A DNA stretch of 41,669 nt from Pseudomonadota bacterium (GCA_010028905.1 RGZZ01000003.1:1-41669), one strand, 5' to 3'. Numbered from the stretch's first letter, positions 1 to 33,945 are shown. Notes: a model not told the origin generated them from the letters alone. Translations and numbers: made by a program.

Positions 1-378
1 CGCGCCTTCACCCTGGGCCAGCCCATCGCCAGCCTCGGCATCGACGCGCAGGGCCAGTTCCTCGCCATCGGCCTCGGCCGCCCAAGCCACAAGGAGATCT
101 ACCGCCGCACATCGCTCAAGCAGCCGTACGTCACCCCGACGGGTGGACCCGCTCCCATCGTGGTGATGCAGACCGCCACATGCGTGCAGGGCACGGGCGC
201 GACGCCCACCGACAAGGAAGCGTTCCGCATCAGCGGACCGGTGGGAGGCGCGCTCAGCGTGGCGTTCAGCGCTGACGGAAAGCGCCTGCTCGTCGGCGGC
301 GCCGATGGCACCTTGCGCGTCTGGCTCATCACCGATGGCCGCGCCCGCCTTCTCTCGATGGGACATTCAAACGGATGA
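1..378 (+). CDS. WD40-repeat protein, C-terminal fragment
   Basis: The frame is open from the first base, so the N-terminus lies outside the window and 125 residues remain. The tail contains a recognisable WD40 blade: a stretch reading ALSVAFSADGKRLLVGGADG followed by TLRVW (about residues 85-110). An earlier, weaker blade (ASLGIDAQGQFLAIG) sits near residues 10-25. WD40 propellers are protein-interaction scaffolds; no partner can be named here. The stop codon overlaps the argH start (ATGA at 375-378), so the two genes are probably translationally coupled. A functional link to arginine synthesis is not implied by the sequence. Confidence 0.75.
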   Translation, partial: RAFTLGQPIASLGIDAQGQFLAIGLGRPSHKEIYRRTSLKQPYVTPTGGPAPIVVMQTATCVQGTGATPTDKEAFRISGPVGGALSVAFSADGKRLLVGGADGTLRVWLITDGRARLLSMGHSNG

Positions 379-1748
379 CGCTCTGGGGCGGTCGCTTCGA
401 AGGCAGCCCCGCGGCGGAGATGCAGGCCTTCTCCGAGTCGCTGGGCATCGATCTGCAGATGGTCGATGAAGACGTCGACGCATCGATGGCGCACGTGACC
501 ATGCTCGCCGAGCAGGGCATCGTCACGGCGCACGAAGGGCAGGTGCTGCGCGACGGTCTCGAGGCCGTGCGCGCGGAGATCCGCAGCGGAGCCTATCGCC
601 CCGGCATCGACCGCGAAGACGTGCACATGGCCGTGGAGGCCCGCCTCACCGAAATCGTGGGCGAGGTGGGGGGCAAGCTACACACCGCGCGCTCGCGCAA
701 CGACCAGGTGGCCACCGACGTGCGCCTGTGGCTGAAGCGCCGCCTCGGCGCGCTCGATGGGCAGCTGCGTCGGCTCATCGGCGTTCTCGTGCGCCGGGTG
801 CGCGACGATGGCCGGACCCTCTGTCCCGGCTTCACCCATCTGCAACGCGGCCAGCCCGTGTGGCTGGGGCACCATCTGCTCGCCCACGCCTGGCCGTTGC
901 AGCGCGACCGCGAGCGGCTGCGCGATGCCCTGCGACGCATCGATCTGTGCCCCCTCGGCGCAGGCGCCATGGCGGGCACACCCCACCCCATCGATCGCCA
1001 CCGCTCCGCTGCGCTGCTCGGGTTCAGCGACGTCGCGCCGAACGCCATGGACGCCGTATCAGCGCGCGACCACATCATCGAGGCCACCTCGGTGTGCGCC
1101 ATCATCATGGTGCACCTGTCGCGCATGGCCGAGGAGCTGGTTCTCTGGTCGAGCGCGGAGTTCGGCTTCGTGCGGCTGAGCGACGACTGGTCGACCGGCT
1201 CGAGCATCATGCCGCAGAAGCGCAACCCCGACGCCGCTGAGCTGGTGCGTGGCAAGAGCGGCCGCGTCATCGGGGCGCTGAACGCCCTTCTCGTCATGAC
1301 GAAGGGGCTGCCGCTGGCGTACAACCGCGACCTGCAAGAAGACCGCAGCGCGCTGTTCGACGCGGTGCACACCGCCACGCAGTGCGTCAGCGTCACCGCA
1401 GGCATGTACGACACGCTCGCGTTCCGCTCCGAACGCTACCGATCTGCACTCGAGGGCGACTTCCTGCTCGCCACCGAGCTGGCCGACCACCTGACCGCGC
1501 GAGGGGTGCCGTTCCGCGAGAGCCATCACGTGGCGGGTCGCCTGGTGGCATGGTGTGAAGCGCGAGGCGGGAACTTCTCGCTGCTGACCCCCGAGGTGCT
1601 CACCGCGCACCATCCCGCCTTCGACGCCGATGCGATGCGGGCCCTCGATCTCACCGAGGCCGTCGAGCGCAGGCGTTCTGCGGGGGGAACGGCCTGGTGC
1701 GAGATCGAGAAGCAGGCAACGCGTCTCGAGGCGCTCATCACATCGTGA
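375..1748 (+). CDS. argH: Argininosuccinate lyase
   Basis: The product cleaves argininosuccinate to arginine and fumarate, the last step of arginine synthesis, in the cytosol. The 457-residue length is normal for ArgH. It starts MTLWGGRFEG, as family members do, and carries the fumarase/aspartase-superfamily signature GSSIMPQKRNPD near residues 275-290, with the serine of the catalytic loop. The HTARSRNDQ block near residue 100 is also typical. The ATG overlaps the stop of the WD40 gene upstream by four bases. It lies about 11 kb from the other arginine genes (argC onward at 12627), so the pathway is split into at least two loci. The next gene is convergent, 31 bases away. Confidence 0.97.
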   Translation: MTLWGGRFEGSPAAEMQAFSESLGIDLQMVDEDVDASMAHVTMLAEQGIVTAHEGQVLRDGLEAVRAEIRSGAYRPGIDREDVHMAVEARLTEIVGEVGGKLHTARSRNDQVATDVRLWLKRRLGALDGQLRRLIGVLVRRVRDDGRTLCPGFTHLQRGQPVWLGHHLLAHAWPLQRDRERLRDALRRIDLCPLGAGAMAGTPHPIDRHRSAALLGFSDVAPNAMDAVSARDHIIEATSVCAIIMVHLSRMAEELVLWSSAEFGFVRLSDDWSTGSSIMPQKRNPDAAELVRGKSGRVIGALNALLVMTKGLPLAYNRDLQEDRSALFDAVHTATQCVSVTAGMYDTLAFRSERYRSALEGDFLLATELADHLTARGVPFRESHHVAGRLVAWCEARGGNFSLLTPEVLTAHHPAFDADAMRALDLTEAVERRRSAGGTAWCEIEKQATRLEALITS

Positions 1749-1779
1749 CATCAGCGACCCTGCCGCAGGCAACAGCGCG

Positions 1780-3669
1780 CTACTGATTGGCTGGCAGCGG
1801 CTTGAGCACGATGCGCACCGGATAGTTCGACCCGGGCTCCGGAATCAGGCGCACCTCGGCTTCCTGCTTGGTCATGGGCGGCAACAGATACTCCCCCAGA
1901 CCGAACTCGCGCGGCCCTGAAGCGCGCATGAGCGGCGTCTGAGCGACGCGGCCGTCGATCATCACCGTTCCTCGCGCCAGACCGCCCCCCACCGCAAAGA
2001 CCACGTACACCTTCCGCTGCTCGGCAGTCGGGTTGCGCAGCAGCAGGCGAATCCGATGCTCGACCCCATAGCTGCCGACGTTGGGCGAACCCTCTCCCAG
2101 AGGCTCATCGTACGGCGGGCCACCGATGGTCACGAACGTGTACGGTCCCCCCACCGAATACTCGGCCGTGCCTTCGCGAACGGGCGGTCCGAACAGCCCC
2201 TTCCCCCGCACCACCGCCGACAGGGGCGGAGGTGGCGCAGACGCTGTGCTGCCCTGCGAGGCGTCGGCGCTCATCGCCTCGACCACGAGGGAAGGGGGCG
2301 TTCCCGACAGCACGGCAATCCGACCCATGCCGCACGCAATCTCTCGCGAAGCCAGAAGGCGCGCATCGAGAACGAGCGCCTCCCGAGGCCCCAGTCGCAT
2401 GCGCACCCCGCTGCCTCGCGCCAGCCATCGCACGTACCGCCAGGCGGCCAGATGTCCGGCGTAGAGCTCGTCGCGCGATGGACCCGCGCCGCTCTCGGCA
2501 AGCAGCAGCTCCACCGGCGACGCGGTCCGGTTGACCAGACTGACCTGGAGGAATCGGGGCGGTGCCTCTGGCGCGTTCTGGTGATGGAAGTAGAAGACCG
2601 TGGCACCGCTGCCGATGGGCGTGTCGAGAAGGGCGCCATCGACGTCGATGCGCTCCGGATGGTTGCTTGCCGCAAGGGCCGCCGCTTCACCGAACTGCGC
2701 CGATGACAGGGTCACCGATACGGTGACGCGACCCACCACCGGGCGTAGCATCTCTCCCTCGAGCCAGGCGGTATAGACGCGGCTGCCTCCAACACCCGCT
2801 CTCCCGCCCTGGCTGAAGAGCGTCAGCTGCGCCCCCTCCGCGGACGCCGCGGCCTGGTCGATGACGCGCTCGCACGCGTCGTCGACGAAATCGGCTTCCG
2901 GCGCGGCCCCGGCGATCTGCGCACGAACATGGGTGGGAAGACGCCCCGCGGATTCGAGGATCATGATCTCGAGATCGGCCACGGCAGTGCCCTTGACGAG
3001 ATGGATGACAGCGTTTCCGGGAGACCGTCCGCAAACCCGCAGGCGATGGCCCACCAGCCCCGCGGTGAGGCCGGCCCCGTCGGGCAGCTTGACAGAAGCT
3101 CCGCTCCACGACGGCGGCAGCGCAACGATGCACGTCTCACCCACCCCCAGCTCAACCGCCTGGGGAACGCGCGTCGCGTCGCGCGCATCGCGCGCCGCCG
3201 CGCGCAGACGCGCGACCCAGCCCTCCACGAGGGCCTCGGCGCTCGTCAGCGACAGGCTCTCGGCCTGGGCCTGCGTGGCGGGCAGCACCACGCACCCGCG
3301 CCAGGTGAGTGCCGGGCCGTCATCGCCGCGCCCGACCGCCACCGCCGCCAGGGAATCGCGAGACGCGGCAACCAGCGCCAGACGACGGGCCAGTCGCGGG
3401 CCTTCGCGCCTCACCTGGGCGGCACTCGCGCATGGGACGAGAAGAGAGGCCTCCCCGACGGCGAACCGCACACAGGGGCGTCCGCTCGGCGTCGTGGCCG
3501 CAGACCACCGCACCTCCACCCGCTCTCCGGCAGCCGACGCGACCGACGTGCCCCCCCGTGAGGATCGCGAGGGCGGATCTGCTGCCGGCGCGCCGGAGGC
3601 GATCGTGCCGGCCAGCAACACGGCCAGCGTGACGAGGAGCGCGTGCCGGAGGCGTGCGCTACAGCGCAT
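1780..3669 (-). CDS. Secreted protein with a pilus/secretin-type N-terminal domain
   Basis: About 629 residues if started at the ATG at 3669, which leaves an 11-base overlap with the upstream helicase-like gene. A longer reading starts at 3696 but overlaps more. No strong ribosome-binding site separates the two. From 3669 the protein begins with a positively charged stretch and a hydrophobic run (ALLVTLAVLLAGTIA), a probable Sec signal peptide ending near GAPAA. Around residues 170-245 a block from VELGVGETCIVALP to GNAVIHLV resembles the short beta domain at the N-terminus of CpaC/secretin-type pilus proteins. The remainder looks beta-rich and low in lysine, with a proline-rich spacer (APPPPL), and I do not recognise it. 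An extracytoplasmic structural or adhesive role is possible but unproven. Confidence 0.7.
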   Translation of the reverse strand: MRCSARLRHALLVTLAVLLAGTIASGAPAADPPSRSSRGGTSVASAAGERVEVRWSAATTPSGRPCVRFAVGEASLLVPCASAAQVRREGPRLARRLALVAASRDSLAAVAVGRGDDGPALTWRGCVVLPATQAQAESLSLTSAEALVEGWVARLRAAARDARDATRVPQAVELGVGETCIVALPPSWSGASVKLPDGAGLTAGLVGHRLRVCGRSPGNAVIHLVKGTAVADLEIMILESAGRLPTHVRAQIAGAAPEADFVDDACERVIDQAAASAEGAQLTLFSQGGRAGVGGSRVYTAWLEGEMLRPVVGRVTVSVTLSSAQFGEAAALAASNHPERIDVDGALLDTPIGSGATVFYFHHQNAPEAPPRFLQVSLVNRTASPVELLLAESGAGPSRDELYAGHLAAWRYVRWLARGSGVRMRLGPREALVLDARLLASREIACGMGRIAVLSGTPPSLVVEAMSADASQGSTASAPPPPLSAVVRGKGLFGPPVREGTAEYSVGGPYTFVTIGGPPYDEPLGEGSPNVGSYGVEHRIRLLLRNPTAEQRKVYVVFAVGGGLARGTVMIDGRVAQTPLMRASGPREFGLGEYLLPPMTKQEAEVRLIPEPGSNYPVRIVLKPLPANQ

Positions 3670-5809
3670 CGAAGGGGAGCCGCAGCTGCGTGGCATCCGC
3701 GTTCAGATCGGTTCTCGACTGGACGTACAGCCTTCGTCGGCTCGCAGCTCTGCGCGAGAGCGCGGGCACGGCGTCGTCGACATAGTCGTAGAGGCGGGTC
3801 AGGTTCTTGAAGCGCTCCATGATGCGCTGCACCTGGCCCTCAGAGCGGGGAGGCGCCGCCAGCAGGAGACGCGTTACAGCGGAGGCGTCGAACCCGGCGC
3901 CCAGCATGGAATCGATGACCACGAGCGCGCTGACCTGTGACGCGCGCACGCGCTCGAGGGTTGCGTGCCGATCGCTGCGGCCCAGGTCTCCGGTGAGCAC
4001 CGCTGACGCAACGCCTCTCGACTCGAGCCCGGCCTGAAGAACCCGCGCGTGCTCCTTGCGGGTCGTCAGCACGAGGCAGAGCCCGGGAGGCGACTGCGAG
4101 ACGCACTCATGCACGGCATCGTCGACGACCATCTCGTTGCGCGCGCCATCGTGGGAGATGGCATCGATGAGGGCGTTCCAGTCGCGCGCCAGGTCAGCGC
4201 GGGCCGTTCTGACCTCGGGCGCCGTCGGCAGTGCCTCCGGGTCGTCGAAGAGCCGCCCGGACTCGACCTCCGTCACGCGGTCGGCGTCCCTCCCCTGCCC
4301 TCTTCCCGACGCGGTGTGGGTGAACCGGGTGTGACGCGTGACCACCTCGACCACATCGTCGCGTCCCTGCTCGCGCGCACGAAGGACGGGGCCGACCAGC
4401 ATCTCGACCATCCGGTCGAGCCCGTCCTCACGACGCCTGTCGGCGGAAAGCCCGAGAACATGGGCGGCCGGCACGGCCTCCAGCGCTTCCCACAGAGCGT
4501 CGAGAGGAACGCGATGACAATCGTCTGCCACCACCATGCCGAAGGGGCCATCGACCTCTGTGGCGCACCGCCGAACGTCGCTGTAGGTCGCGAGCACGAG
4601 CGGAGCGTCAACCGGCCCGGCCTCTTCGAAGCTGCGCACGTCGTGGGGCTCGAACCCGGCGAGAAGGGCCTGCTCGCGCCAGTGATCGCGTCGGGAGGGA
4701 TTGGTGGTGAGAACGAGGGTGGGCTGACCGCGCTCGGCCACCACGGCGAACGCGACGGATGTGCGCACGAAGTCATCGCCATCGATCACCACACCGCTCT
4801 CACTGCGCAGGGCGACCTCCGCCAGGGCGCGCGCCTCCTGGGCCAGCACCGCGCCTGTCAGCCGAGGAAGCGCGGGCCAGCGCCACCGCACATCGAGCAC
4901 CTCGCAGCGAACGCCATCCTCCTCGCACCACGCAGCCACCTGCTCGAACAGGCCACGCGGGACCCGCCAGGCACCATCGGCACGGGTCCACCCTGGCAGC
5001 AGACGGCGAGAGGGTCGCGCGCGTCGCTCGCCAGGGCGCTTCAGCCCGCGAGGATTGGGGAACGTGAGCCGTCTGCGCAACCGGCGGGCAAGGCCCGGGG
5101 GAAGGGGCCTCGAGAGCACGAGGCTGGCGCTGCGCACGACATCGACCTGCGAGAGCGCAGGACGACGCACCGCACGGCGCTCGCCCCCCTCGACCAGCGA
5201 CGCGACGGTCGAGGCGCTGACGCGCCGGATGGACGCCAGCACCGCCGCTTGATCGGGCAGCACCCCAAGACCTCGCCGGCCCTCCACGAACAGGCCCCCT
5301 CCCACGTGGCGCGCGACACCGCCCAGGGGCAAGGAGAGGGTTCCGGGGGTGGGGCCGGGCACGATCTCTGAAAAGCTGCCGATGCGCTCGATATCGCCCC
5401 CGCTTGCGTGCATCAGCAGCGCCGATGCCAGGCGGCGAGCCTGCAGCACAGGGGTCTCCTCCTCGAGAAAGACCCAGGCGCGCAGACCCGGGTTGGAACC
5501 CGACAAAGCCTCCAGGAGAACCGGCACGCCGAGGGCGGCAGAGGCTGCGGCAAAGTCAACGGCATCGGTCTTCCACGCGCCCCCCTTCTTCCGGCGAAAA
5601 GACAAGGTGACATAGTGGCAGACGTCGTTTACGGCGGGATCGACATCGAGGGTGACGCTTCCCTCGAGATGCGCCCGGATAGCTTCGTGATCGAGCGCCG
5701 GATGGACCCGAGGGTCTATCGCGAAGGCGCGTGCGAACAGCGCGACGTGCGCAGGCGACACGGGGAGAGGGGAGGCAGGGGGGCGTTCCGTCGGGCGCGA
5801 AGAGGGCAT
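3659..5809 (-). CDS. Degenerate TOTE-type primase-helicase homologue (predicted inactive)
   Basis: 716 residues from the ATG at 5809; an in-frame TTG at 5830 falls at the foot of a hairpin and is less likely. The order of blocks follows the archaeo-eukaryotic primase plus SF2 helicase protein of TOTE conflict systems: IRAHLEG (44-50), a strand where the metal-binding DxD should be (65-72), WVFLEEETPVLQARRLAS (112-129), QAAVLASIRRVS (187-198), LPPGLARRL (236-244), then helicase blocks. The usual cysteine insert before IRAHLEG is missing. The primase DxD reads TLSF, and the histidine of the SGNG-H motif is arginine (SNPGLRAW). Walker A reads GDDFVRT instead of GxGKT. DECH is DDCH (429-432), SAT is SAD (455-457), and motif VI keeps one arginine. 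The end, LYDYVDDAVPALSRR, is well kept. I infer a non-catalytic nucleic-acid-binding descendant. No TOTE nuclease neighbour is present. Confidence 0.8.
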   Translation of the reverse strand: MPSSRPTERPPASPLPVSPAHVALFARAFAIDPRVHPALDHEAIRAHLEGSVTLDVDPAVNDVCHYVTLSFRRKKGGAWKTDAVDFAAASAALGVPVLLEALSGSNPGLRAWVFLEEETPVLQARRLASALLMHASGGDIERIGSFSEIVPGPTPGTLSLPLGGVARHVGGGLFVEGRRGLGVLPDQAAVLASIRRVSASTVASLVEGGERRAVRRPALSQVDVVRSASLVLSRPLPPGLARRLRRRLTFPNPRGLKRPGERRARPSRRLLPGWTRADGAWRVPRGLFEQVAAWCEEDGVRCEVLDVRWRWPALPRLTGAVLAQEARALAEVALRSESGVVIDGDDFVRTSVAFAVVAERGQPTLVLTTNPSRRDHWREQALLAGFEPHDVRSFEEAGPVDAPLVLATYSDVRRCATEVDGPFGMVVADDCHRVPLDALWEALEAVPAAHVLGLSADRRREDGLDRMVEMLVGPVLRAREQGRDDVVEVVTRHTRFTHTASGRGQGRDADRVTEVESGRLFDDPEALPTAPEVRTARADLARDWNALIDAISHDGARNEMVVDDAVHECVSQSPPGLCLVLTTRKEHARVLQAGLESRGVASAVLTGDLGRSDRHATLERVRASQVSALVVIDSMLGAGFDASAVTRLLLAAPPRSEGQVQRIMERFKNLTRLYDYVDDAVPALSRRAASRRRLYVQSRTDLNADATQLRLPFDAL

Positions 5810-5830
5810 GGAAGGATGTTCAATAAACAA

Positions 5831-5860
5831 CGTGGCCTCCCTCTCTCGAGGAAGGCCACG
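5831..5860 (-). terminator. Hairpin with T-rich flank, terminator or attenuator
   Basis: CGTGGCCT at 5831-5838 pairs with AGGCCACG at 5853-5860. The stem continues with one mismatch to an inner four-base-pair part and a four-base loop. Read on the minus strand, it is followed directly by TTGTTTATT, like an intrinsic terminator. It ends the YqzL-like transcript but lies only about 22 bases ahead of the ATG of the primase-helicase homologue, so it could also act as an attenuator for that gene. Confidence 0.6.
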
Positions 5861-5969
5861 TGGGGCGCGCCGCTACTGTGGGCGCGCGACTCCTTCTGGA
5901 CGACATCACGGCCCGCCAGCGGCAGCTGCAACGAGATGCGTCGGTTTCAGGTCAGGGCGTCGAAGGAGA

Positions 5970-6059
5970 TCAGTCGCAGTTCAGCTTCTTGTACATGATG
6001 TAGTGCGAGATGGAGCCAGTTGATTTGAACAGATCCCAGAAGATTTCCGGCGTCAACAA
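5970..6059 (-). CDS. YqzL-like microprotein, 29 residues
   Basis: A very short reading frame starting at TTG (6057-6059), preceded at good spacing by AAAGGGG. The protein begins MLTPEIFWDLFKSTGSIS and continues HYIMYKKLNCD. This follows the YqzL pattern of Gram-positive bacteria: an F-W-x-x-F-x-x-T-G-S-I core, then Y-x-x-Y-K. An in-frame ATG at 6081-6083 would give 37 residues, but it would leave a leader of only about 8 bases and has no ribosome-binding site. A well-formed promoter lies just upstream and a hairpin downstream, which supports a real gene. YqzL function is not established; in Firmicutes it is often near recO, which is not seen here. Confidence 0.75.
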   Translation of the reverse strand: MLTPEIFWDLFKSTGSISHYIMYKKLNCD

Positions 6060-6097
6060 GGTACTACCCCTTTCGCGCGTCATTCTGAACCCACGCA

Positions 6098-6126
6098 AGT
6101 ATAACACAGCCCCCCTGGTTTGGCAA
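6098..6126 (-). promoter_or_regulatory. Sigma-70-type promoter for the YqzL-like gene
   Basis: On the minus strand TTGCCA (6121-6126) is followed after 17 bases by TATACT (6098-6103). Transcription would start near 6091, about 32 bases ahead of the TTG start codon and just upstream of the AAAGGGG ribosome-binding site. Confidence 0.7.
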
Positions 6127-6179
6127 CGAGCCGTTTCAGGTTTTTTTCAGGTTCTCCCTGGCCTGGAGGTGAGCGGACG

Positions 6180-6977
6180 ATGAAAGGCAGCGAATCACCG
6201 ATGATCACCAGCCGCCAGAATCCGCTGGTCAAGGAGATCGTGGAGGCGGGTCGCAGACGACCGTCGGGCCTGTTCGTTCTCGAAGGCCCGCATCTCGCTG
6301 ATGAGGCCCTGCGCGCCGACGTGCGCATCGTGCGGGTGCTGCTCGGACCGAACGCCGACCCTCACATTGCGGCGCGGCTTCGAGAGCGCGCTGAACGGGT
6401 CTTCGACGCCTCTGCCGAAGTCGTCGCGCACGCCGCCGACAGTCAGCATCCCCAGGGAATCGTCGCTCTCGCGGAAGAGCCCCCGCTCGCGCTCGAGCCC
6501 GATCGCGCCCGCGTGGGCCGGCTGCTGCTGCTCGATGAGGTGCGCGATCCGGGAAATCTGGGCACGATCATGCGAACCGCCTGGGCTTCCGGCGTTGCGG
6601 GCGTGATCACGGTGGGAAGCTGCGTCGATCCCTGGAACCCCAAGGCGGTGCGCGCATCCGCCGGAGCCTGCTTCCACGTGCCGGTGCTGCGCATCGCCGA
6701 TCGCGCCGAGCTGCCCCCCTGGCTCGAGACGCACGGACAGCGGGCGCTGCGGGTCGAGGCAAACGGCCGACGCTCGTGCTTTGAAGCCGACCTCTCGTCG
6801 CCCGTCACACTGGTGCTGGGCAGCGAAGCGCACGGGGTGCACCCTGAGACCGCGGCAGCCTGCGCCGACTCGCTGCACGTGCCGATGCGCGGAGGGTGCG
6901 AGTCGCTCAACCTGGCGGCGACGGCGGCCGTTCTCTGCTACCTGGCCCTCGATCGGGAGACGCGGCTCAGGTCTTGA
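6180..6977 (+). CDS. SpoU/TrmH-family RNA 2'-O-methyltransferase
   Basis: 265 residues from the ATG at 6180, which follows GGAGGT by nine bases; a longer TTG reading from 6120 has no such signal. The three SPOUT motifs are present: motif 1 DPGNLGTIMRTAWASG (asparagine and arginine of NxGxxxRxA), motif 2 LVLGSEAHGV, and motif 3 VPMRGGCESLNLAATAAV. The N-terminal 100 residues form the substrate-binding domain typical of 23S rRNA 2'-O-ribose methyltransferases (opening SRQNPLVKEI, then VLEGPHL). The family uses S-adenosylmethionine and a trefoil knot. The exact rRNA target cannot be read from sequence. Its 3' end overlaps the convergent S26-like gene by 11 bases. Confidence 0.93.
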   Translation: MKGSESPMITSRQNPLVKEIVEAGRRRPSGLFVLEGPHLADEALRADVRIVRVLLGPNADPHIAARLRERAERVFDASAEVVAHAADSQHPQGIVALAEEPPLALEPDRARVGRLLLLDEVRDPGNLGTIMRTAWASGVAGVITVGSCVDPWNPKAVRASAGACFHVPVLRIADRAELPPWLETHGQRALRVEANGRRSCFEADLSSPVTLVLGSEAHGVHPETAAACADSLHVPMRGGCESLNLAATAAVLCYLALDRETRLRS

Positions 6978-7584
6978 ACCTGCTGCCCTTCTTCTTGCTC
7001 TTTCGCACCAGCACCGGCGCCTCGATCTTGGTGACGTCGTCGCCCACCTCGAGGTTGTCCTCACGGCGCTTGTGAAGCGGCAGCATGAAGAGAACGAAGT
7101 CAACGAACTTCGACCAGACGGGGCGGGTGCCGTACGAGGTGAGCCAGTCGATGGGCCCGCGATTGAGACGCCACGCGCTGATCTTGCGACCATGACGCTC
7201 GACGTGGATGAGCTTGGCGAGAAGCTGTGAGGCCCGCAGCTGATCACGCTCGTTGTGATCGACATCGGAGCGGGTGATGAGGGTGGCCTTCCCCTCCACG
7301 AAGAGCTTGCGCACCACCCGACGCACCGCGGGCACACCGCTGTTGATGCGGTAGAGCACGAAATCGCCCTCGCGTGTCTTCACGTAGTTCGTCGACTTGA
7401 AGACCATGAGATCACCCGGCTGGATGAACGGCATCAAGGTGGTGTCGGTGACGCGAACGTTGAACGCATTGCCCGCCGACAGGGTGTCGATGATGCGCTG
7501 GATGGCGTCCGCCGCGCCCTGCATGGCGAGAAAGCTGCCACGGTGCAGGCTGCCAGGGGAGATGTCGAAGCCTTCTTCGCTCAC
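6967..7584 (-). CDS. S24/S26 peptidase-like protein with altered catalytic residues
   Basis: 205 residues from a GTG at 7584 with GGAGG eight bases upstream; longer readings run into the upstream transporter gene. The middle is built like a signal-peptidase/LexA-type fold: VTDTTLMPFIQPGDLMVFK (45-63) matches the VxGxSMxPxxxxGD box. The catalytic serine position is threonine (T49) and the preceding glycine is aspartate. The basic box reads VRRVVRKLF where signal peptidases have a lysine or HRV, and TRSDVDHNERD corresponds to the later TKGD box. There is no clear N-terminal membrane anchor. The tail is lysine-rich (RKSKKKGSRFK). It may be a protease with a threonine nucleophile, or an inactive relative. 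It is 25 bases downstream of the symporter gene. Confidence 0.7.
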   Translation of the reverse strand: MSEEGFDISPGSLHRGSFLAMQGAADAIQRIIDTLSAGNAFNVRVTDTTLMPFIQPGDLMVFKSTNYVKTREGDFVLYRINSGVPAVRRVVRKLFVEGKATLITRSDVDHNERDQLRASQLLAKLIHVERHGRKISAWRLNRGPIDWLTSYGTRPVWSKFVDFVLFMLPLHKRREDNLEVGDDVTKIEAPVLVRKSKKKGSRFKT

Positions 7585-7609
7585 GCAGACGCCCTCCAGA
7601 CCCACGAGC

Positions 7610-8929
7610 TCATGAGTGACCCACTGCTGCCGCAGCGTCGTCGGCGACCGCAGGCGGAGGCTGCGCACCCGTCGTGGGCTGCGCCTCCGTCGGATCGGCC
7701 AGCACGCCTTCCCAGCGCGCCACCACGGCGGTGGCGAGGCAGTTCCCGAGAACGTTCACCGCGGTTCGCGCCATGTCCATCACGGCATCGACACCGAGGA
7801 TGACGGCAACCCCTTCCACAGGCAGGTTGAAGGTGGCAAGGGTTCCCGCGAGGATGACCAGCGACGCCCGAGGCACCCCCGCCACCCCCTTGCTGGTGAG
7901 CATCAGGGTGAGCACCATTAGCATCTGCTGGCTCAAGGGCATGTCCACCCCCGCTGCCTGCGCCACGAACACCGATGCCAGGGACAGGTACAGCGTGGTG
8001 CCGTCGAGATTGAAGCTGTAGCCGGTGGGAATGACAAACGACACGATCTGACGGGGCACGCCGAACCGCTCCATGTTCTGCATGGCGCGAGGCAGCGCGG
8101 CTTCGCTGCTGGTCGTGGAGAATGCGATGGTCACTGGTTCGCGCACGGCCTCAAAGAACCGGCGCACGGGGATTCGCGCGATCGCCATCACCGTGCCGAG
8201 CACGAAGACGACGAAGAAGAACAGCGCCAGGTACAGCGTGCCGATGAGCTTGCCCAGATACCCCAGCACCTGCACGCCCTGCCCTCCGATGGTCGCCGCC
8301 ATGGCGGCCGCCACGCCGATGGGCGCGTACCGCATGATGAAGCCGGTGTACTTGAACATGACCTCGGCCACGCTCTCGCACAGCTCGATGACGGGCTTGC
8401 CACGGTCGCCCGCCGCCACCACCCCCATGCCGAACAGCACCGCGAAGACCACGATCTGGAGCACGTCGCCACGGGCCATGGCGTCAACCACGCTGGCGGG
8501 GAAGGTGTGAAGAAGGATGTCGGCGGCGCCGTGCATCTTCTGGGCATCGATCTTCTCCGCGCTTGCCGCGAGTGTCAGGTTGACGCCCGCGCCGGGCTGC
8601 ACGAGGTTCACCGCGGCCAGCCCGACCAGAAGCGCAAACGTGGTCACCACCTCGAAGTACACGAGCGCCTTGAGGCCCATGCGCCCCACGGCCTCGAGCG
8701 AGCCGACCCCCGCGATGCCCACCACGAGCGTTGCGAACACCAGCGGAGCGATGATCGACTTGATCATCTGCAGGAACAATGTGCCGAGGGGCTTGAGGCT
8801 CACCGCCAGATCCGGGCGCACCACGCCGAGGGCCACACCCAGGGCCAGTCCGATGAAGATCTGGGCCGTGAGCCCGATTCCCTTGGCGGGAGCGGGTGGG
8901 GCGGCGGAGGCCTCGGCATCGATGCGCAT
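7610..8929 (-). CDS. Dicarboxylate/amino acid:cation symporter (DAACS family)
   Basis: 439 residues from the ATG at 8929. The long open frame above it is out-of-family, alanine/arginine-rich and overlaps the next gene, so it is not coding. The protein is a multi-pass inner-membrane transporter of the GltP/DctA type: TSSSEAALPRAMQNME (serine-rich re-entrant loop), GYSFNLDGTTLYLSLASVF, SKGVAGVPRASLVILAG, and the substrate-site helix DAVMDMARTAVNVLGNCLA. These proteins import glutamate, aspartate or C4-dicarboxylates with Na+ or H+. The arginine of DMARTAVN fits acidic substrates, but I cannot separate amino-acid from dicarboxylate specificity. The S26-like gene follows closely on the same strand. 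Confidence 0.92.
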   Translation of the reverse strand: MRIDAEASAAPPAPAKGIGLTAQIFIGLALGVALGVVRPDLAVSLKPLGTLFLQMIKSIIAPLVFATLVVGIAGVGSLEAVGRMGLKALVYFEVVTTFALLVGLAAVNLVQPGAGVNLTLAASAEKIDAQKMHGAADILLHTFPASVVDAMARGDVLQIVVFAVLFGMGVVAAGDRGKPVIELCESVAEVMFKYTGFIMRYAPIGVAAAMAATIGGQGVQVLGYLGKLIGTLYLALFFFVVFVLGTVMAIARIPVRRFFEAVREPVTIAFSTTSSEAALPRAMQNMERFGVPRQIVSFVIPTGYSFNLDGTTLYLSLASVFVAQAAGVDMPLSQQMLMVLTLMLTSKGVAGVPRASLVILAGTLATFNLPVEGVAVILGVDAVMDMARTAVNVLGNCLATAVVARWEGVLADPTEAQPTTGAQPPPAVADDAAAAVGHS

Positions 8930-9039
8930 GCCGTGAGGTTCGTCAGGAATGGCGTGAACGTCCTTCCGCGGCAGCGCACCGGACTGCACAGCAGACTCGA
9001 GCCTGCGGCAGCGCCCCCACCTGACGCAGACGGCTCGCG

Positions 9040-9975
9040 TCAGTGCGCGGGCAGGGGCCTGAGAAGACGGTCGAGCATCACCGCCAGCCGCACGCCGCCG
9101 ACCAGCATCCTCCGCATGGCAATGCTCTCCGCCTGCGCCACATAGTGCGCCGAGAGCGGCTCGACCTCCCGGGGCAGGTGCTTCGGGTCGGTGATGACAG
9201 CCCCCGGCACGGCCCCCTCGCAGTAGACCCGCGTGACCGCAAGCTTCTTCCCCTCCGTGATCCACACGGTCGAATCGCCACCGCAGAACTTCGGGCGCCC
9301 CCCAACCTCCAGTGCGCGCGCACGCGCCGGCACGTCGGTGGACGCATGGACCACGAGCCCGTCCCAGAGCGCGTGCAGGTTGATGACACGACCCTCGGGC
9401 CGACAGACCGCCCAGAGGTTCCCCCCCTGATCGCCTCCGGGCAGCGCGCGGCTCACGCGCTCGACGCAGTGCAAGGGCTGATGCAGATCGCCGACGAGGT
9501 GCAAAATCCAACAGATCGCCTCAGCGCGCTCGCGGCGGGTCGCCCCGGGCCGGCGAAGCGTCGCTTCGCAGCACGCAAGGGCCGTGACGGCGTTGGGGGT
9601 GGGCGGTTCGGTCACACGGGTGCCATCGAACGAGATGCGCTGGTCGATGTAATGCCAGTCAGAGTGGACCTGATCCGGCTCGACACGAAAGGGATTGTCG
9701 CTGCTCCTGCGCTTGATGTCGTCTGGCCAGACCGCCGCCCGCCCCACCACGTAGGCACGCCAATCGGCGACAGCGGCAGCAACAGCCTCCTTCTCCCAGA
9801 CGGGAAAGGACGGGTGCGCGCGCAGGATGATGAAGAGACGGGAGCGCGTCTCCTCGTCGAGACGGTTCCACGCGAGGTGCGCCACCAGCTCGTGACCGGG
9901 CCGGCTCCACGCGTGACAGAGCCCCGCGAGCTGCAGCCACACCAGTGCGCACATCACGACCCGTCTCGATCTCAT
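9040..9975 (-). CDS. Secreted S1/P1-type nuclease
   Basis: 311 residues from the ATG at 9975, with GGGGAGG five bases upstream. The N-terminus is a short signal peptide (VVMCALVWLQLAGLCHA) and cleavage would expose tryptophan. In this family the mature N-terminal tryptophan is itself a zinc ligand, so the cleavage site fits. Other metal ligands follow in order: GHELVAHLAW, WPDDIK, HSDWHYID, HLVGDLHQPLHCV, GGDQGGNLW and NLHALWDG. These trinuclear-zinc enzymes degrade single-stranded DNA and RNA and remove 3' phosphates, so it may scavenge phosphate or nucleotides outside the cytoplasm. It is divergent from the DUF2231 fusion gene across 245 bases with no clear control site. Confidence 0.93.
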   Translation of the reverse strand: MRSRRVVMCALVWLQLAGLCHAWSRPGHELVAHLAWNRLDEETRSRLFIILRAHPSFPVWEKEAVAAAVADWRAYVVGRAAVWPDDIKRRSSDNPFRVEPDQVHSDWHYIDQRISFDGTRVTEPPTPNAVTALACCEATLRRPGATRRERAEAICWILHLVGDLHQPLHCVERVSRALPGGDQGGNLWAVCRPEGRVINLHALWDGLVVHASTDVPARARALEVGGRPKFCGGDSTVWITEGKKLAVTRVYCEGAVPGAVITDPKHLPREVEPLSAHYVAQAESIAMRRMLVGGVRLAVMLDRLLRPLPAH

Positions 9976-10220
9976 GACAGCCTCCCCGATCTCGCCTCCG
10001 CGCCGAGCCCCCCGCGTCAGCCGCGCGTGCCCGGCGCAGGGAAGCGTTCCGCTCCGGCGGGCCACGATTCCTTCGCGGATGCGCCACCGCCCTCCGCCGT
10101 GCCGATGTCGCGGCCATCCGGAACGCTGTTCTGGCAGGCGTTGCCCTCCCCGACTGCGAACCCGCGCCTGCCCCTGGCTTGATAGCGAGGGCCCAAGACC
10201 CGACAAGGAACGTCATTCAC

Positions 10221-12482
10221 GTGGAGCTCGCCAGACTGCTCGGCGGAGCGCACCCGCTCCTGGTTCACTTCCCCATCGCACTTCTCCCCATGGCCACCCT
10301 CATCGACCTCTTGGGCTGGTGGCGTCGCAGCGAACGCCTGGCCTGGTGTGGCTACTGGCTCACCTTGCTGGGCACGGTCGGAGGCGTCTGCACCTTCGTG
10401 TGCGGCATTCTCGCCGAGCTCTTCGCGGCGCGCAGCGGCGTGCCGCAGCACATGATCGAGGTGCATGAGTGGCTGGCGACCTTCGCCGTGTGGACCTTCA
10501 TCGCCGTGGCCGTGGCGCGCATCCTGATGGGGGTCACGCTCCACCGGCGGAGCGCTCCGATCTACCTGCTGGCTGCCATCGCGGGCTGCGCGCTGCTCGT
10601 GATGGCCGCGCATCGCGGGGGGCAGGTGACCTACGCCTACGGTGCCAACGTGACCGGCGTGCAGCTGCAGCGGCTGCCGAGCGACGAAGACCTTGCGGTG
10701 CTGGCCCAGCATCAACGCGAAGACACGCTGCAGTACTCCAACCAGATGCACTGGATCTTCGGCGGCATCGTCCTGGCGCTCGCCGCGAGCGTTCTGCTCG
10801 AGCGCCTGCCGCGAGGACGGGTGCGCGAGCTGCGACGGATCATGCCGCTCGTGTTCGTGGGCGGCGGCGTCTACCTGGCCATCTTCAGCGACTGGGACAG
10901 CTGGCCCATCTCGACGCTTCGCCCCCTCACCGACCCCGAGGTGCTGCTGCACAAGTTCATCGCCTTGCTGCTGGTTGCCATGGGCGTGCTGTCGTGGCGC
11001 AAGCCGCCCCAGGCCGACACCTCGGCATCGACCTGGCAGAACCGCGTCATCGCCGTCATGTCGGCCATCGGTGGCGGCCTGCTCTTCACCCACGTGCACA
11101 CCAACGCGCCCTACACGAACGTGGCCGTGGGCGTCTACCTCAATCACAGCGCCCTCGGACTGGCCGCCTTCGGCGTCGGAGCCGCAGTGCTCCTGGCCGA
11201 CGCCTTCCCCCAGTCGAAGCGCATCGCGTGGCTCTTCCCGCTCTTCCTCGCCATCGAGGGCGCGCTGCTGCTCACCTACAACGAAGATCTGCCATGGTTC
11301 GCAGGCTACCACCGGATCTCGAACCAGCCAACGCGCGGCGGCGTGCTCGCCCACCTCGAGAAGGGTCGTGCTGAGCTGACCTTCGACCGCAACAAGGGGG
11401 TGCTCGATCTGTACCTGCTCGGCGCCCACGACGCACAGCCCCTCGAGCGGTCGGAGCCGACGCTCGACGGCGTCATCGAAGCCCGCCAGCGGGCCTTCCC
11501 CATTGCGTTCACGAGCGTGGAGAGCGGGCACTACCAACTGGCCCTCGACTGGCTGCGCGCCGTTCCCGTGTTCAACGTGCGCCTGGGCGCGCCGCTCGAC
11601 ACCTCGTTCGATCCCATCGTCACCGCGCCGCTGCTGCCCCCCCTCGAAGGCGCGGAGGTGGTCTACGCCTGCGCGATGTGCCCGGATGTGCGATCGTCGA
11701 TTCCGGGCACCTGCAGCATGTGCGGCATGACGCTCGAGGCGCTGCCGAAGCCCGAGATCACGGCCCCCGCCGTGCCGCCCCACGACCCGGAACTCGACTG
11801 CCGTCTCGCAGTGCAGCGCCCCCCGAAAGCGGGAGAGCCCGTCAAGATGACCCTGACGCCGGTCGGACCCGGCGGCGCCACGCTCACCAACCTGCACATC
11901 ATGCACGAGAAGTTGATGCACCTCATGATCGTGCGCGACGATCTGAATGCATTCGATCACGTGCACCCGATCCGCCAGTCGGACGGCTCGTTCGTCATCG
12001 AGCACACCTTTCCCAGCGGCGGGCAGTACGTTCTCTTCGCCGAGATCGCGCCCACGGGCCGGCACGCGCAGCGCTTCCGGATCCCGGTGACGGTGGACGG
12101 GCCGGCCGCGCCACCGCCCCCTCACCGACCGCAGACCGCCCTCCTCCAGCAAGGCGACTACACGTTCTCCCTCGACACGGGAACGCTCCCCGTGCGCGCG
12201 GGTGGCGAGACGCCCCTCACGGTGAGCATCTACAAGAACGGACGTCCCGTCGAGGACCTGACGACCTGGCTGGGCGCCGCAGGGCACTGCGTGATCATCT
12301 CTTCCGACACCCTCGACTACGTGCACGCCCACGCGCTGCAGCTGAGCGCGGTGCAGACCCCCGCCGGTCCCGACATCGCCTTCCACGCTCGACTGCCTCG
12401 CCCTGGACGGTACCGCATGTGGGCCCAGCTGGCCCATGGCGACAAGGTGCTCACCGCCGACTTCGATCTCGAGGCGCGCTGA
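10221..12482 (+). CDS. DUF2231 membrane protein fused to a heavy-metal-binding module
   Basis: 753 residues from a GTG at 10221 with AAGGA upstream; a TTG at 10179 is the alternative. Residues 1-150 form a DUF2231-like membrane domain (HPLLVHFPIALLPMATLIDL). More helices follow (about 190-350), including GGGLLFTHVHTNAP, a histidine pair facing the membrane as in copper-associated proteins. At about residue 482 comes YACAMCPDVRSSIPG, then TCSMCGM: the heavy-metal-binding motif usually written YxCPMHP..CPxCGM, but with cysteine in place of the histidine. The last 250 residues are beta-rich and contain HIMHEKLMHLMIVRDDL, DHVHPI and YVHAHAL, histidine/methionine-rich stretches seen in copper-handling proteins. 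I infer a membrane-anchored metal-binding protein, probably copper, with periplasmic C-terminus. Confidence 0.75.
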   Translation: MELARLLGGAHPLLVHFPIALLPMATLIDLLGWWRRSERLAWCGYWLTLLGTVGGVCTFVCGILAELFAARSGVPQHMIEVHEWLATFAVWTFIAVAVARILMGVTLHRRSAPIYLLAAIAGCALLVMAAHRGGQVTYAYGANVTGVQLQRLPSDEDLAVLAQHQREDTLQYSNQMHWIFGGIVLALAASVLLERLPRGRVRELRRIMPLVFVGGGVYLAIFSDWDSWPISTLRPLTDPEVLLHKFIALLLVAMGVLSWRKPPQADTSASTWQNRVIAVMSAIGGGLLFTHVHTNAPYTNVAVGVYLNHSALGLAAFGVGAAVLLADAFPQSKRIAWLFPLFLAIEGALLLTYNEDLPWFAGYHRISNQPTRGGVLAHLEKGRAELTFDRNKGVLDLYLLGAHDAQPLERSEPTLDGVIEARQRAFPIAFTSVESGHYQLALDWLRAVPVFNVRLGAPLDTSFDPIVTAPLLPPLEGAEVVYACAMCPDVRSSIPGTCSMCGMTLEALPKPEITAPAVPPHDPELDCRLAVQRPPKAGEPVKMTLTPVGPGGATLTNLHIMHEKLMHLMIVRDDLNAFDHVHPIRQSDGSFVIEHTFPSGGQYVLFAEIAPTGRHAQRFRIPVTVDGPAAPPPPHRPQTALLQQGDYTFSLDTGTLPVRAGGETPLTVSIYKNGRPVEDLTTWLGAAGHCVIISSDTLDYVHAHALQLSAVQTPAGPDIAFHARLPRPGRYRMWAQLAHGDKVLTADFDLEAR

Positions 12483-31895: not shown

Positions 31896-33815
31896 TCAGG
31901 CGCTCGCGGGAAGGATGTGCACGATGATGGCCGTGGCGTTGTCGTCGGCGCCCCGACGCAGCGTCTCCTCGATGAGACGCTCGCAGGTCGCTTGAGGATC
32001 GTCGCCCTGCCGCATGAACCCGATGATCTCGTCCTCCGAGAAATATTCCCATACCCCGTCTGAGCAGAGGAGCAGGCGATCGCCCCGAGCCAGCTCCCGC
32101 GTGTAGAGGTCGACCTCGAGCTCCCCCTGGGTTCCCAGGGCGCGATAGAGATACGAGCGCTGAGGAGAGGTTCGGGCCTCCTCGCGGGTCAGCTGACCGA
32201 TGCGCACCAGCTTGCCCACGAGCGAGTGATCTTCGGTGACCTGATCGATCTGCTGCGATGCAGGGCGGTACAGATAGGCGCGGGTATCCCCCGCGTGCCC
32301 GAAGACGGCATGCGGCCAGTCGATCATCAGCGCCGTCAGGGTCGAGCCCATGCCGCGACGCGACTCGTCCTGGCGAGAGTAGTCGAACACGCAGCGGTTG
32401 GCCGTCTCGATGGCCTCGTGCACCAGCTCCTCGAGCCGTGGCACCGTCTCTGTGGGACGAAGGCGGCTCGTGTCGGTGCCGGTCTTCACGGGGATGCAGC
32501 TGGCGAGAACGTGGCTGGCCATCGATCGGATGGCCAGCGAAGATGCCTTGTCACCCTCAGCCTCGCCGCCCATGCCGTCGGCAACGACCACGAGGAGCGC
32601 CTGCGTCGGCACAGAGTGCTCCCACGCGGAGAAGCCCGTCACCAGGAGACTATCCTGGTTCACCGATCGCACGCAGCCGACGTGCGACTTCATGCCGATG
32701 ACACACGGGAGGAAGCCTGGCGCCCACGGCTGCTGCGGCGTCGAGGCCTCACCTGCCGAAGCGGGCTCGGAAGCCGGCGGCGCTGCCTCCGAGGGAGAGG
32801 GCGCCGGAGGGTCGGCTGGCGCAGGTGGCGCCTCACCCGCGGTGGTCGGAGCCGCGTCGCCAGCGGTGTCCTCAGCCCCGCCCAGCAGAACCTCTTCCAG
32901 GGCGTCAGCCATCTCGTCGGCCGAGGAGAAGCGGTTGCGAGCGTCCTTGCTGACGGCCTTCATCACAGCCGCCTCGAGACGAGGGGGAACGCCCTTCACG
33001 TGGGTTCGCAGAGGCGGGAAGAAGAAGAACTGCTCGCGGCTCACGGCAGCCGGGCTCTGACCGGAGAGCAGGAAGTAGAGGGTGGCCCCCACCCCGTACA
33101 CGTCGGATGCGACGCACGGCGAACCGCCCACACCGAAGGCCTCCGGCGCGGAATAGCCCTCGGTGACGCTGCACACCGCGGGGAGGTCGTCGATGCGAGC
33201 GAGGCGCTCATAGCCGTCGAGCAAGGCGAGCCCGCCATCGTCGATGAAGATGTGCGACGGGTGCACCCCGAGATGCAGAAAGCCTCGCCCGTGAAGCTCG
33301 GAGAGCGCCTTCAGCGTGGCGATGCCGATGGCAACGACGTCATCGTGGGGCAGCGGACCGCCATCCTGACGGTAGGGCTGAAGCGCGCACTGCGGGAGGG
33401 GGTCTCCCACCAGAAAGCCTCGCCCTTCGCGATAGAAGAAATCACTGACCGCCCACAGATGCGGGCACTCGCTGGCCTGCAGGGCACGCCAGGCTGTTGC
33501 CGCGCGAGACGGGTCTTCAGGGTGAGGCTGGCCAGGCGAAGCCTCATCGGCCTTCTCGAGGGGCGGCGCCTCCGCGTCTTCGAGGACGCGAGCCGCCTTG
33601 CCGTCACGCGCGCGAATGGCCTCGTAGACGTTGAACGCGCCGTCGACGCGCGCCGAAGCGACGATGTACCCTGTGCCGGGGATCTCGCCCAGGGGCAGGA
33701 GATCGTGACGCTGACGCTGCTCGAGAACGACGGGGGCCGCCGTCAGCAGTGCCCCGCAATCGGCACAGTAGGTCTCTTCACCGGGGTTTTCGAGCTCGCA
33801 CGATGGACACCTCAA
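31896..33815 (-). CDS. Zinc ribbon - pseudokinase - PP2C phosphatase fusion
   Basis: 639 residues from a TTG at 33815 (GGAG nine bases upstream), giving an MRCPSC start as in the neighbouring FHA protein; a GTG at 33854 is possible. Residues 1-22 form a four-cysteine ribbon. Residues 45-310 follow a kinase fold, but key residues are lost: the VAIK lysine is arginine (AARVL, 74-78), HRDLKPSN reads HLGVHPSH (181-188), and DFG reads DGY (200-202). SAPEAFG and the DVYGVG helix remain. After a proline/alanine linker, residues 370-639 are a PP2C phosphatase with NQD (386-388), VADGMGG (411-417), GDTRAYL, CSDGVWEYF and DDNAT, all metal ligands intact. I infer a phosphatase whose targeting or regulation comes from a dead kinase. 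Confidence 0.9.
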   Translation of the reverse strand: MRCPSCELENPGEETYCADCGALLTAAPVVLEQRQRHDLLPLGEIPGTGYIVASARVDGAFNVYEAIRARDGKAARVLEDAEAPPLEKADEASPGQPHPEDPSRAATAWRALQASECPHLWAVSDFFYREGRGFLVGDPLPQCALQPYRQDGGPLPHDDVVAIGIATLKALSELHGRGFLHLGVHPSHIFIDDGGLALLDGYERLARIDDLPAVCSVTEGYSAPEAFGVGGSPCVASDVYGVGATLYFLLSGQSPAAVSREQFFFFPPLRTHVKGVPPRLEAAVMKAVSKDARNRFSSADEMADALEEVLLGGAEDTAGDAAPTTAGEAPPAPADPPAPSPSEAAPPASEPASAGEASTPQQPWAPGFLPCVIGMKSHVGCVRSVNQDSLLVTGFSAWEHSVPTQALLVVVADGMGGEAEGDKASSLAIRSMASHVLASCIPVKTGTDTSRLRPTETVPRLEELVHEAIETANRCVFDYSRQDESRRGMGSTLTALMIDWPHAVFGHAGDTRAYLYRPASQQIDQVTEDHSLVGKLVRIGQLTREEARTSPQRSYLYRALGTQGELEVDLYTRELARGDRLLLCSDGVWEYFSEDEIIGFMRQGDDPQATCERLIEETLRRGADDNATAIIVHILPASA

Positions 33816-33945
33816 GAACCGTTGCTCCGTTCTGTCTGCCGCGCACAACCCCACCAGGTGAGGGCCCGCCGTGACGTACCTCGTGCAGGTGGGCTTCTCT
33901 GGTATTTCAGCGGAATCCTCCGCTCCCGTTGCGGCGGCGCGACGG

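Follow-up and report, generated by a model that had tools for sequence, protein, structure and literature searches.

The window, by which we mean the whole 41,669-nucleotide stretch of DNA analysed here (GCA_010028905.1 RGZZ01000003.1:1-41669), belongs to a genome that we infer from its named relatives to be of class UBP9 of Eremiobacterota. Its minus strand carries a gene for a 716-residue protein, P0001, in which an AEP (Prim-Pol) domain is followed by a superfamily 2 (SF2) helicase, with most catalytic motifs of both lost. The open reading frame (ORF) starts with ATG at 5809, with a possible alternative TTG start at 5830, and has zero internal stops. The gene and its parts are the following.

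3659..5809 (-), gene of the AEP-SF2 helicase P0001, 716 aa, predicted to be catalytically dead (ORF call, Pfam, profile match)
5186..5710 (-), AEP (Prim-Pol) domain, residues 34-208 (Pfam, profile, fold match to CAPP Prim-Pol)
in 5588-5614 (-), slot of AEP motif I, TLSFRR
in 5474-5503 (-), slot of AEP motif II, GLRAW
in 5279-5299 (-), AEP motif III, LFVEG
4385..4852 (-), helicase RecA-like domain 1, residues about 320-475 (profile; XPB/RAD25 match)
in 4757-4792 (-), slot of Walker A, DDFVRT
in 4511-4534 (-), slot of Walker B, DDCHR
in 4433-4450 (-), SAD in the SAT slot
3725..4186 (-), helicase RecA-like domain 2, residues about 542-695 (Helicase_C, profile, model)
3671..3688 (-), putative C-terminal beta-clamp-binding-like motif QLRLPF, residues 708-713, followed by DAL and the stop
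tail peptides with the putative clamp motif: ADATQLRLPFDAL; in the relatives G009 and G012, SSEQLLLFE

Homology of P0001 to AEP-TOTE proteins and SF2 helicases is far above chance. Pfam assigns residues 38-204 to AEP-TOTE (PF22548; E=7.7e-15, 55.5 bits vs a cut-off of 27) and matches residues 565-666 to Helicase_C slightly below the cut-off (E=1.1e-4). A custom profile of 10 active AEP-helicases, four from the same phylum and the remainder from plasmids and viral contigs, aligns with P0001 in three colinear blocks (E=1.3e-53), while none of 400 shuffled sequences was reported. The colinearity spans the AEP domain, the linker and both RecA domains, a domain order common to the plasmid, viral-contig and chromosomal primase-helicases of PF22548. 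For structure we relied on an AlphaFold2 model of the AEP half (first 335 residues; predicted local distance difference test, pLDDT, 71, about 90 in the core) and not on the weak full-length model (pLDDT 57); model pLDDT is about 77-94 across residues 551-640, in RecA-like domain 2. The best PDB match of the AEP half is the CAPP Prim-Pol (7nqd, 7p9j; Foldseek E=2.5e-9, target template modelling score 0.63), which shares the AEP fold and differs in being an active, TPR-linked Prim-Pol devoid of an SF2 helicase. The top six BFVD matches include a protein annotated 'TOTE conflict system primase domain-containing'. For the helicase half, PDB sequences yield a match to XPB/RAD25 (3.3e-7), and the best solved relatives of this half, the SF2 helicases XPB/RAD25 and RadD, retain the ATPase motifs that P0001 lacks. 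An earlier note, made from the DNA alone, had described block-for-block colinearity with the AEP-helicase of TOTE conflict systems. All the blocks it quoted are present, and the AEP nature it gave to the N-terminal half is borne out by profile and fold match alike. An Rfam search of window positions 1-12000 and an initial scan of the genome contigs with the window protein gave no match.

Seven active relatives keep invariant the DxD motif, the histidine of SGxGxH, GKT, DExHH, SAT and the arginines of motif VI. P0001 has TLSFRR (YVTLSFRR) in place of DxD at AEP motif I, SNPGLR for SGxGxH at motif II, DDFVRT for AFGKT at Walker A, SAD for SAT and ERF for GRLHR at motif VI; motif V (GAGFD) of the second RecA-like domain is retained in outline. 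The cysteine (zinc) insert present in most active copies is missing, as it is from an Arcobacter copy with GKT and DxD. The losses listed in the earlier note (DxD, the SGNG-H histidine, the cysteine insert, Walker A, SAT) are thus real when set against the residues invariant in active proteins. Its statement that both active sites are gone needs qualification: both enzyme halves are degenerate, but motif III is still acidic (LFVE vs vFVD in active proteins) and the DECHH slot is only half lost (DDCHR). P0001 should neither make primers nor hydrolyse ATP, since motif I and the Walker A lysine on which Prim-Pol and SF2 biochemistry depend are missing. DNA binding could survive without the metal site, because binding by Prim-Pol is thought to be metal-independent (PMC10345425).

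Searches of the phylum found the degenerate protein in four further genomes, all of the same class, and the window's own genome holds one AEP-TOTE match. G002 comes from the same family as the window and another genus; its protein, 398 residues long until the contig ends, is 36% identical to P0001 over 388 aligned residues, with no stop and no frameshift. It has AADGMRRS at Walker A and TDL at SAT, and keeps DE in DEVR. The other three genomes, G009, G011 and G012, form a second family, f3 (recorded as UBA6111 and UBA1432, both UBP9, and MAG no_shock_S1_038). Their proteins consist of AEP, linker, first RecA domain, basic linker and tail, the second RecA domain being absent; that of G012 is partial, a run of N covering part of the first RecA domain, and that of G011, searched by itself, still scores against PF22548, though below the curated cut-off (E=2.4e-4). 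The motif I acids drift in f3 (DLD, DAE, DLE), motif II lacks the histidine (GLD/GLQ) and the motif III segment is deleted; G009 keeps DLD with neither motif II histidine nor motif III. Walker A is missing from the proteins of the window, G002, G009 and G011 and from the partial one of G012. Among all these relatives none has both DxD and GKT, none has GKT, and no member has the full AEP triad. The AEP site is thus eroded at different points in the two families, and Walker A is gone in both. Between the AEP and helicase parts of the f3 proteins the block LLEHTRMARTPRGW-RCWGPTPWG is near-invariant (L077:5055-6479(+), residues about 214-237) and is a possible binding surface.

These comparisons bear on whether P0001 might be a changed yet active enzyme that uses its altered residues, DDFVRT, DDCHR and the motif III glutamate. 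The acid of motif III, the two aspartates at the Walker B slot (DDCH), the DE of G002 and the DLD of G009 would be compatible with such an enzyme. Prim-Pol motif III is defined as hD/E, and mutations in motifs I and III abolish Prim-Pol activity (PMC10345425). P0001 lacks the Walker A Gly-Lys and the motif VI arginines on which ATP hydrolysis depends, and the altered slots vary between relatives and are not newly conserved; we regard an altered activity as very improbable.

Two other kinds of AEP protein were seen in the phylum. A TPR + AEP + Mu-Gam/Gp157-TOTE protein with intact DxD and SxGxH (L044:799-2868(-), with L042, L043, L045 and L046) occurs in G009, G012, G014, G001 and G008, and the intact AEP thus coexists with the dead one in G009 and G012. 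A 680-707 aa protein (L049-L054) in six genomes from three other families begins with a diverged AEP-TOTE domain, has cysteines in its middle part and ends in a RecA/DnaB-like ATPase; its DxD looks altered too.

The gene is retained under selection. The ratio of nonsynonymous to synonymous substitution rates (dN/dS) among f3 proteins is 0.22 (G009-G012), 0.33 (G011-G012) and 0.39 (G009-G011). A simulation of neutral decay over 388 codons at the same GC content and 38% identity gives about 5 expected stops and a probability of no stop of about 0.003; zero are seen. The earlier note had argued that a neutral pseudogene would have collected stops. Taken alone the open frame is a weak argument, because this 68% GC DNA also carries a chance ORF of 440 aa on the antisense strand (4049-5371(+)); the relatives, dN/dS and the simulation do back retention, and it is this comparison, not the frame, that carries the case. 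P0001 shows none of the usual signs of a pseudogene (stops, frameshifts, dN/dS near 1), and a recently broken copy is ruled out by the degenerate relatives and dN/dS. A slowly decaying relic of a mobile element with no present function would account for the successive loss of motifs and then of a whole domain, for the patchy presence and for the long branches. We consider it quite improbable in view of the f3 ratios, the absence of stops and frameshifts from the sequenced parts, the simulation, and the gene order kept with G002 at 36% identity.

The most informative feature of these proteins, absent from the earlier note, is a peptide at their C-terminus that resembles ligands of the beta sliding clamp. 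Directly before the stop codon the window protein ends in ATQLRLPFDAL, G002 in TTQLRLPFDA, G009 and G012 in SSEQLLLFE and G011 in SSEQLFLSFE. The clamp-binding consensus QPhi-x-[LM]-[FL] or QPhi-x-[LM]-x-[FL] (PMC13254535) fits all five C-termini (QLRLPF twice, QLLLF twice, QLFLSF), and a tight-binding peptide for the E. coli clamp is QLSLPL (PMC12309361). Among 468 non-family ORFs of 200 aa or more, none has the strict form QLxL(x)F in its last 12 residues and two have a loose form there. The peptide is also absent from all 26 helicase ORFs inspected. About ten of these have clearly homologous C-termini, ending near GYxxxGY; several others carry little weight, since they terminate in extensions or in another frame. 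In this sample the peptide is thus restricted to the dead group. One active AEP-helicase of a viral contig (L113:2872-5223(+)) ends in QKPLDLEFK, which resembles the clamp consensus and does not fit it.

DinB (polymerase IV) proteins of the same genomes end in similar peptides, QLLLPFPS in the window's own genome, QLELFDHEE in G009/G011 and QLELWPEEAVLA in G002, each followed by the stop. The peptide lies at the C-terminus in both DinB and the dead proteins, and known binders such as E. coli QLSLPL, Pol IV tails and RecB QVEMEF carry a comparable short hydrophobic sequence on other folds; clamp binding by a dead AEP-helicase is putative. An exact pairing of DinB and dead-protein tail types per genome was looked for and not found (QLELW with QLRLPF in G002, QLELF with QLFLSF in G011). 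The six-residue peptide is identical in the window and G002 while three of its six codons differ synonymously (CTG/TTG, CGG/CGT, CTC/CTG). The f3 proteins have kept the tail although the whole second RecA domain before it was dropped. Because of this conservation in f3, the rarity in the background, the likeness to DinB tails and the synonymous codon changes, we privilege a clamp-tethered role. The dead AEP-helicase could instead be retained to bind nucleic acid or a protein partner, its tail being due to chance or to another partner. Retention and fold homology are independent of the tail, and peptide motifs are short. Such a tail would nevertheless have to recur in five of five C-termini of two families, including proteins devoid of the second RecA domain, against a loose background of 2/468 and beside similar DinB tails, and we judge this unlikely.

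The genes around P0001 include argH, argC, argD, carB, an rRNA methylase-like gene, a dicarboxylate symporter gene and an S1/P1 nuclease-like gene. Next to the AEP gene lie the following.

1780..3669 (-), downstream gene of a secreted DUF3370-like protein (weak Pfam match, 0.028)
5970..6083 (-), YqzL-like ORF of 37 aa just upstream of the AEP gene (PF14006, E=0.0018, below cut-off)

No TOTE nuclease, Mu-Gam-like or restriction partner is found at the P0001 locus, and its sole PADLOC match is the generic PrimPol model; the S1/P1 nuclease-like gene, several genes off, is presumably of a secreted type and no TOTE partner. A TOTE defence locus is ruled out by the lack of partner genes and by the metabolic neighbours, and the locus gives no evidence of the defence or conflict role that the earlier note mentions for TOTE systems. 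The note's idea of domestication into a non-catalytic binder is partly supported: the two enzyme halves are both degenerate and selection has kept the gene, with the reservation of the motif III glutamate. A dead TOTE-type copy might still act as sensor or decoy of invading DNA, as its nearest active relatives reside on plasmids and viral contigs. The setting among arginine biosynthesis, rRNA methylase and transporter genes, and that of the f3 copies beside metG and a CoA-disulfide-reductase-like gene, make such a defence factor improbable.

The DUF3370-like gene probably begins at the ATG at 3669 and so shares 11 nt with the end of the AEP gene, and the codons shared at the stop/start overlap hold no ribosome-site-like sequence. 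G002 has the same gene order and the same kind of overlap, its DUF3370-like neighbour being 44% identical. That the tail is kept merely because a start codon overlaps it was considered and rejected, both since the shared codons do not resemble a ribosome site and since the f3 proteins keep it next to no DUF3370-like gene. An order and overlap common to two genera could point to one pathway shared by the AEP gene and the secreted protein. This is hardly to be expected, given that the f3 neighbourhoods examined yield no DUF3370 match and that most of the genomes with DUF3370-like genes (28 of 28 sampled) have no dead AEP-helicase. DUF3370-like genes are mostly present in two or three copies in each of the 28 Eremiobacterota genomes. 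Elsewhere in the window, a single ORF (31896-33854(-)) fuses a protein kinase domain to a PP2C/SpoIIE phosphatase domain.

We favour, with a probability of roughly 0.55, the reading that P0001 is a catalytically dead, clamp-tethered accessory protein of replication or repair derived from an AEP-SF2 helicase of TOTE/plasmid type. An ancestral enzyme would have lost primer synthesis and ATP-driven unwinding and been kept on the chromosome as a binding protein. Its AEP and RecA-like folds most likely retain the ability to bind DNA, single-stranded or branched, or else a partner, and the QLxL(x)F peptide would dock on the sliding clamp DnaN. Tethered in this way, the protein would be brought to replication forks or to the gaps that they leave behind, and there may serve replication restart or repair as an adaptor or a competitor with no catalysis of its own.

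Several points weigh against this reading. Clamp binding, DNA binding and the role in replication or repair are inferred, and chance could produce a peptide of six residues. The dead protein is present in only five genomes, and G014, which is 95% complete and shares its genus with three of them, yielded no match. The window-G002 comparison (dN/dS 0.67) is too saturated to be strong, with dS about 1.07. Tree branches are very long, with support of 30/0, the dead proteins are not resolved as one clade, and by BLAST the f3 proteins resemble G002 no more than they do some active AEP-helicases. Motif loss may have proceeded in two steps or two lineages, and the dead forms are perhaps two independent decays because neither the BLAST distances nor the tree establish one dead clade. 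The proteins may descend from one dead ancestor or from two decays that each ended in a clamp-like tail; the latter, if true, is the more striking alternative.

There are known cases of enzymes that lost catalysis and persist as adaptors. After a brief search of the literature, we know of no bacterial chromosome described as having kept a dead AEP primase-helicase. A tentative history, to which we give somewhat less than even odds, is that of a bacterial accessory factor of replication or repair made from a mobile-element primase-helicase that was stripped of both activities and acquired a clamp tail, possibly twice independently within the class, with the second RecA domain lost in one branch that retained the tail. 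The tail, if real, gives a dead primase-helicase a definite place of work. If true, this would reveal a route for replication enzymes of mobile or defence elements into the fork machinery of the host, and would bear on whether gain of a clamp tail accompanies the loss of catalysis.

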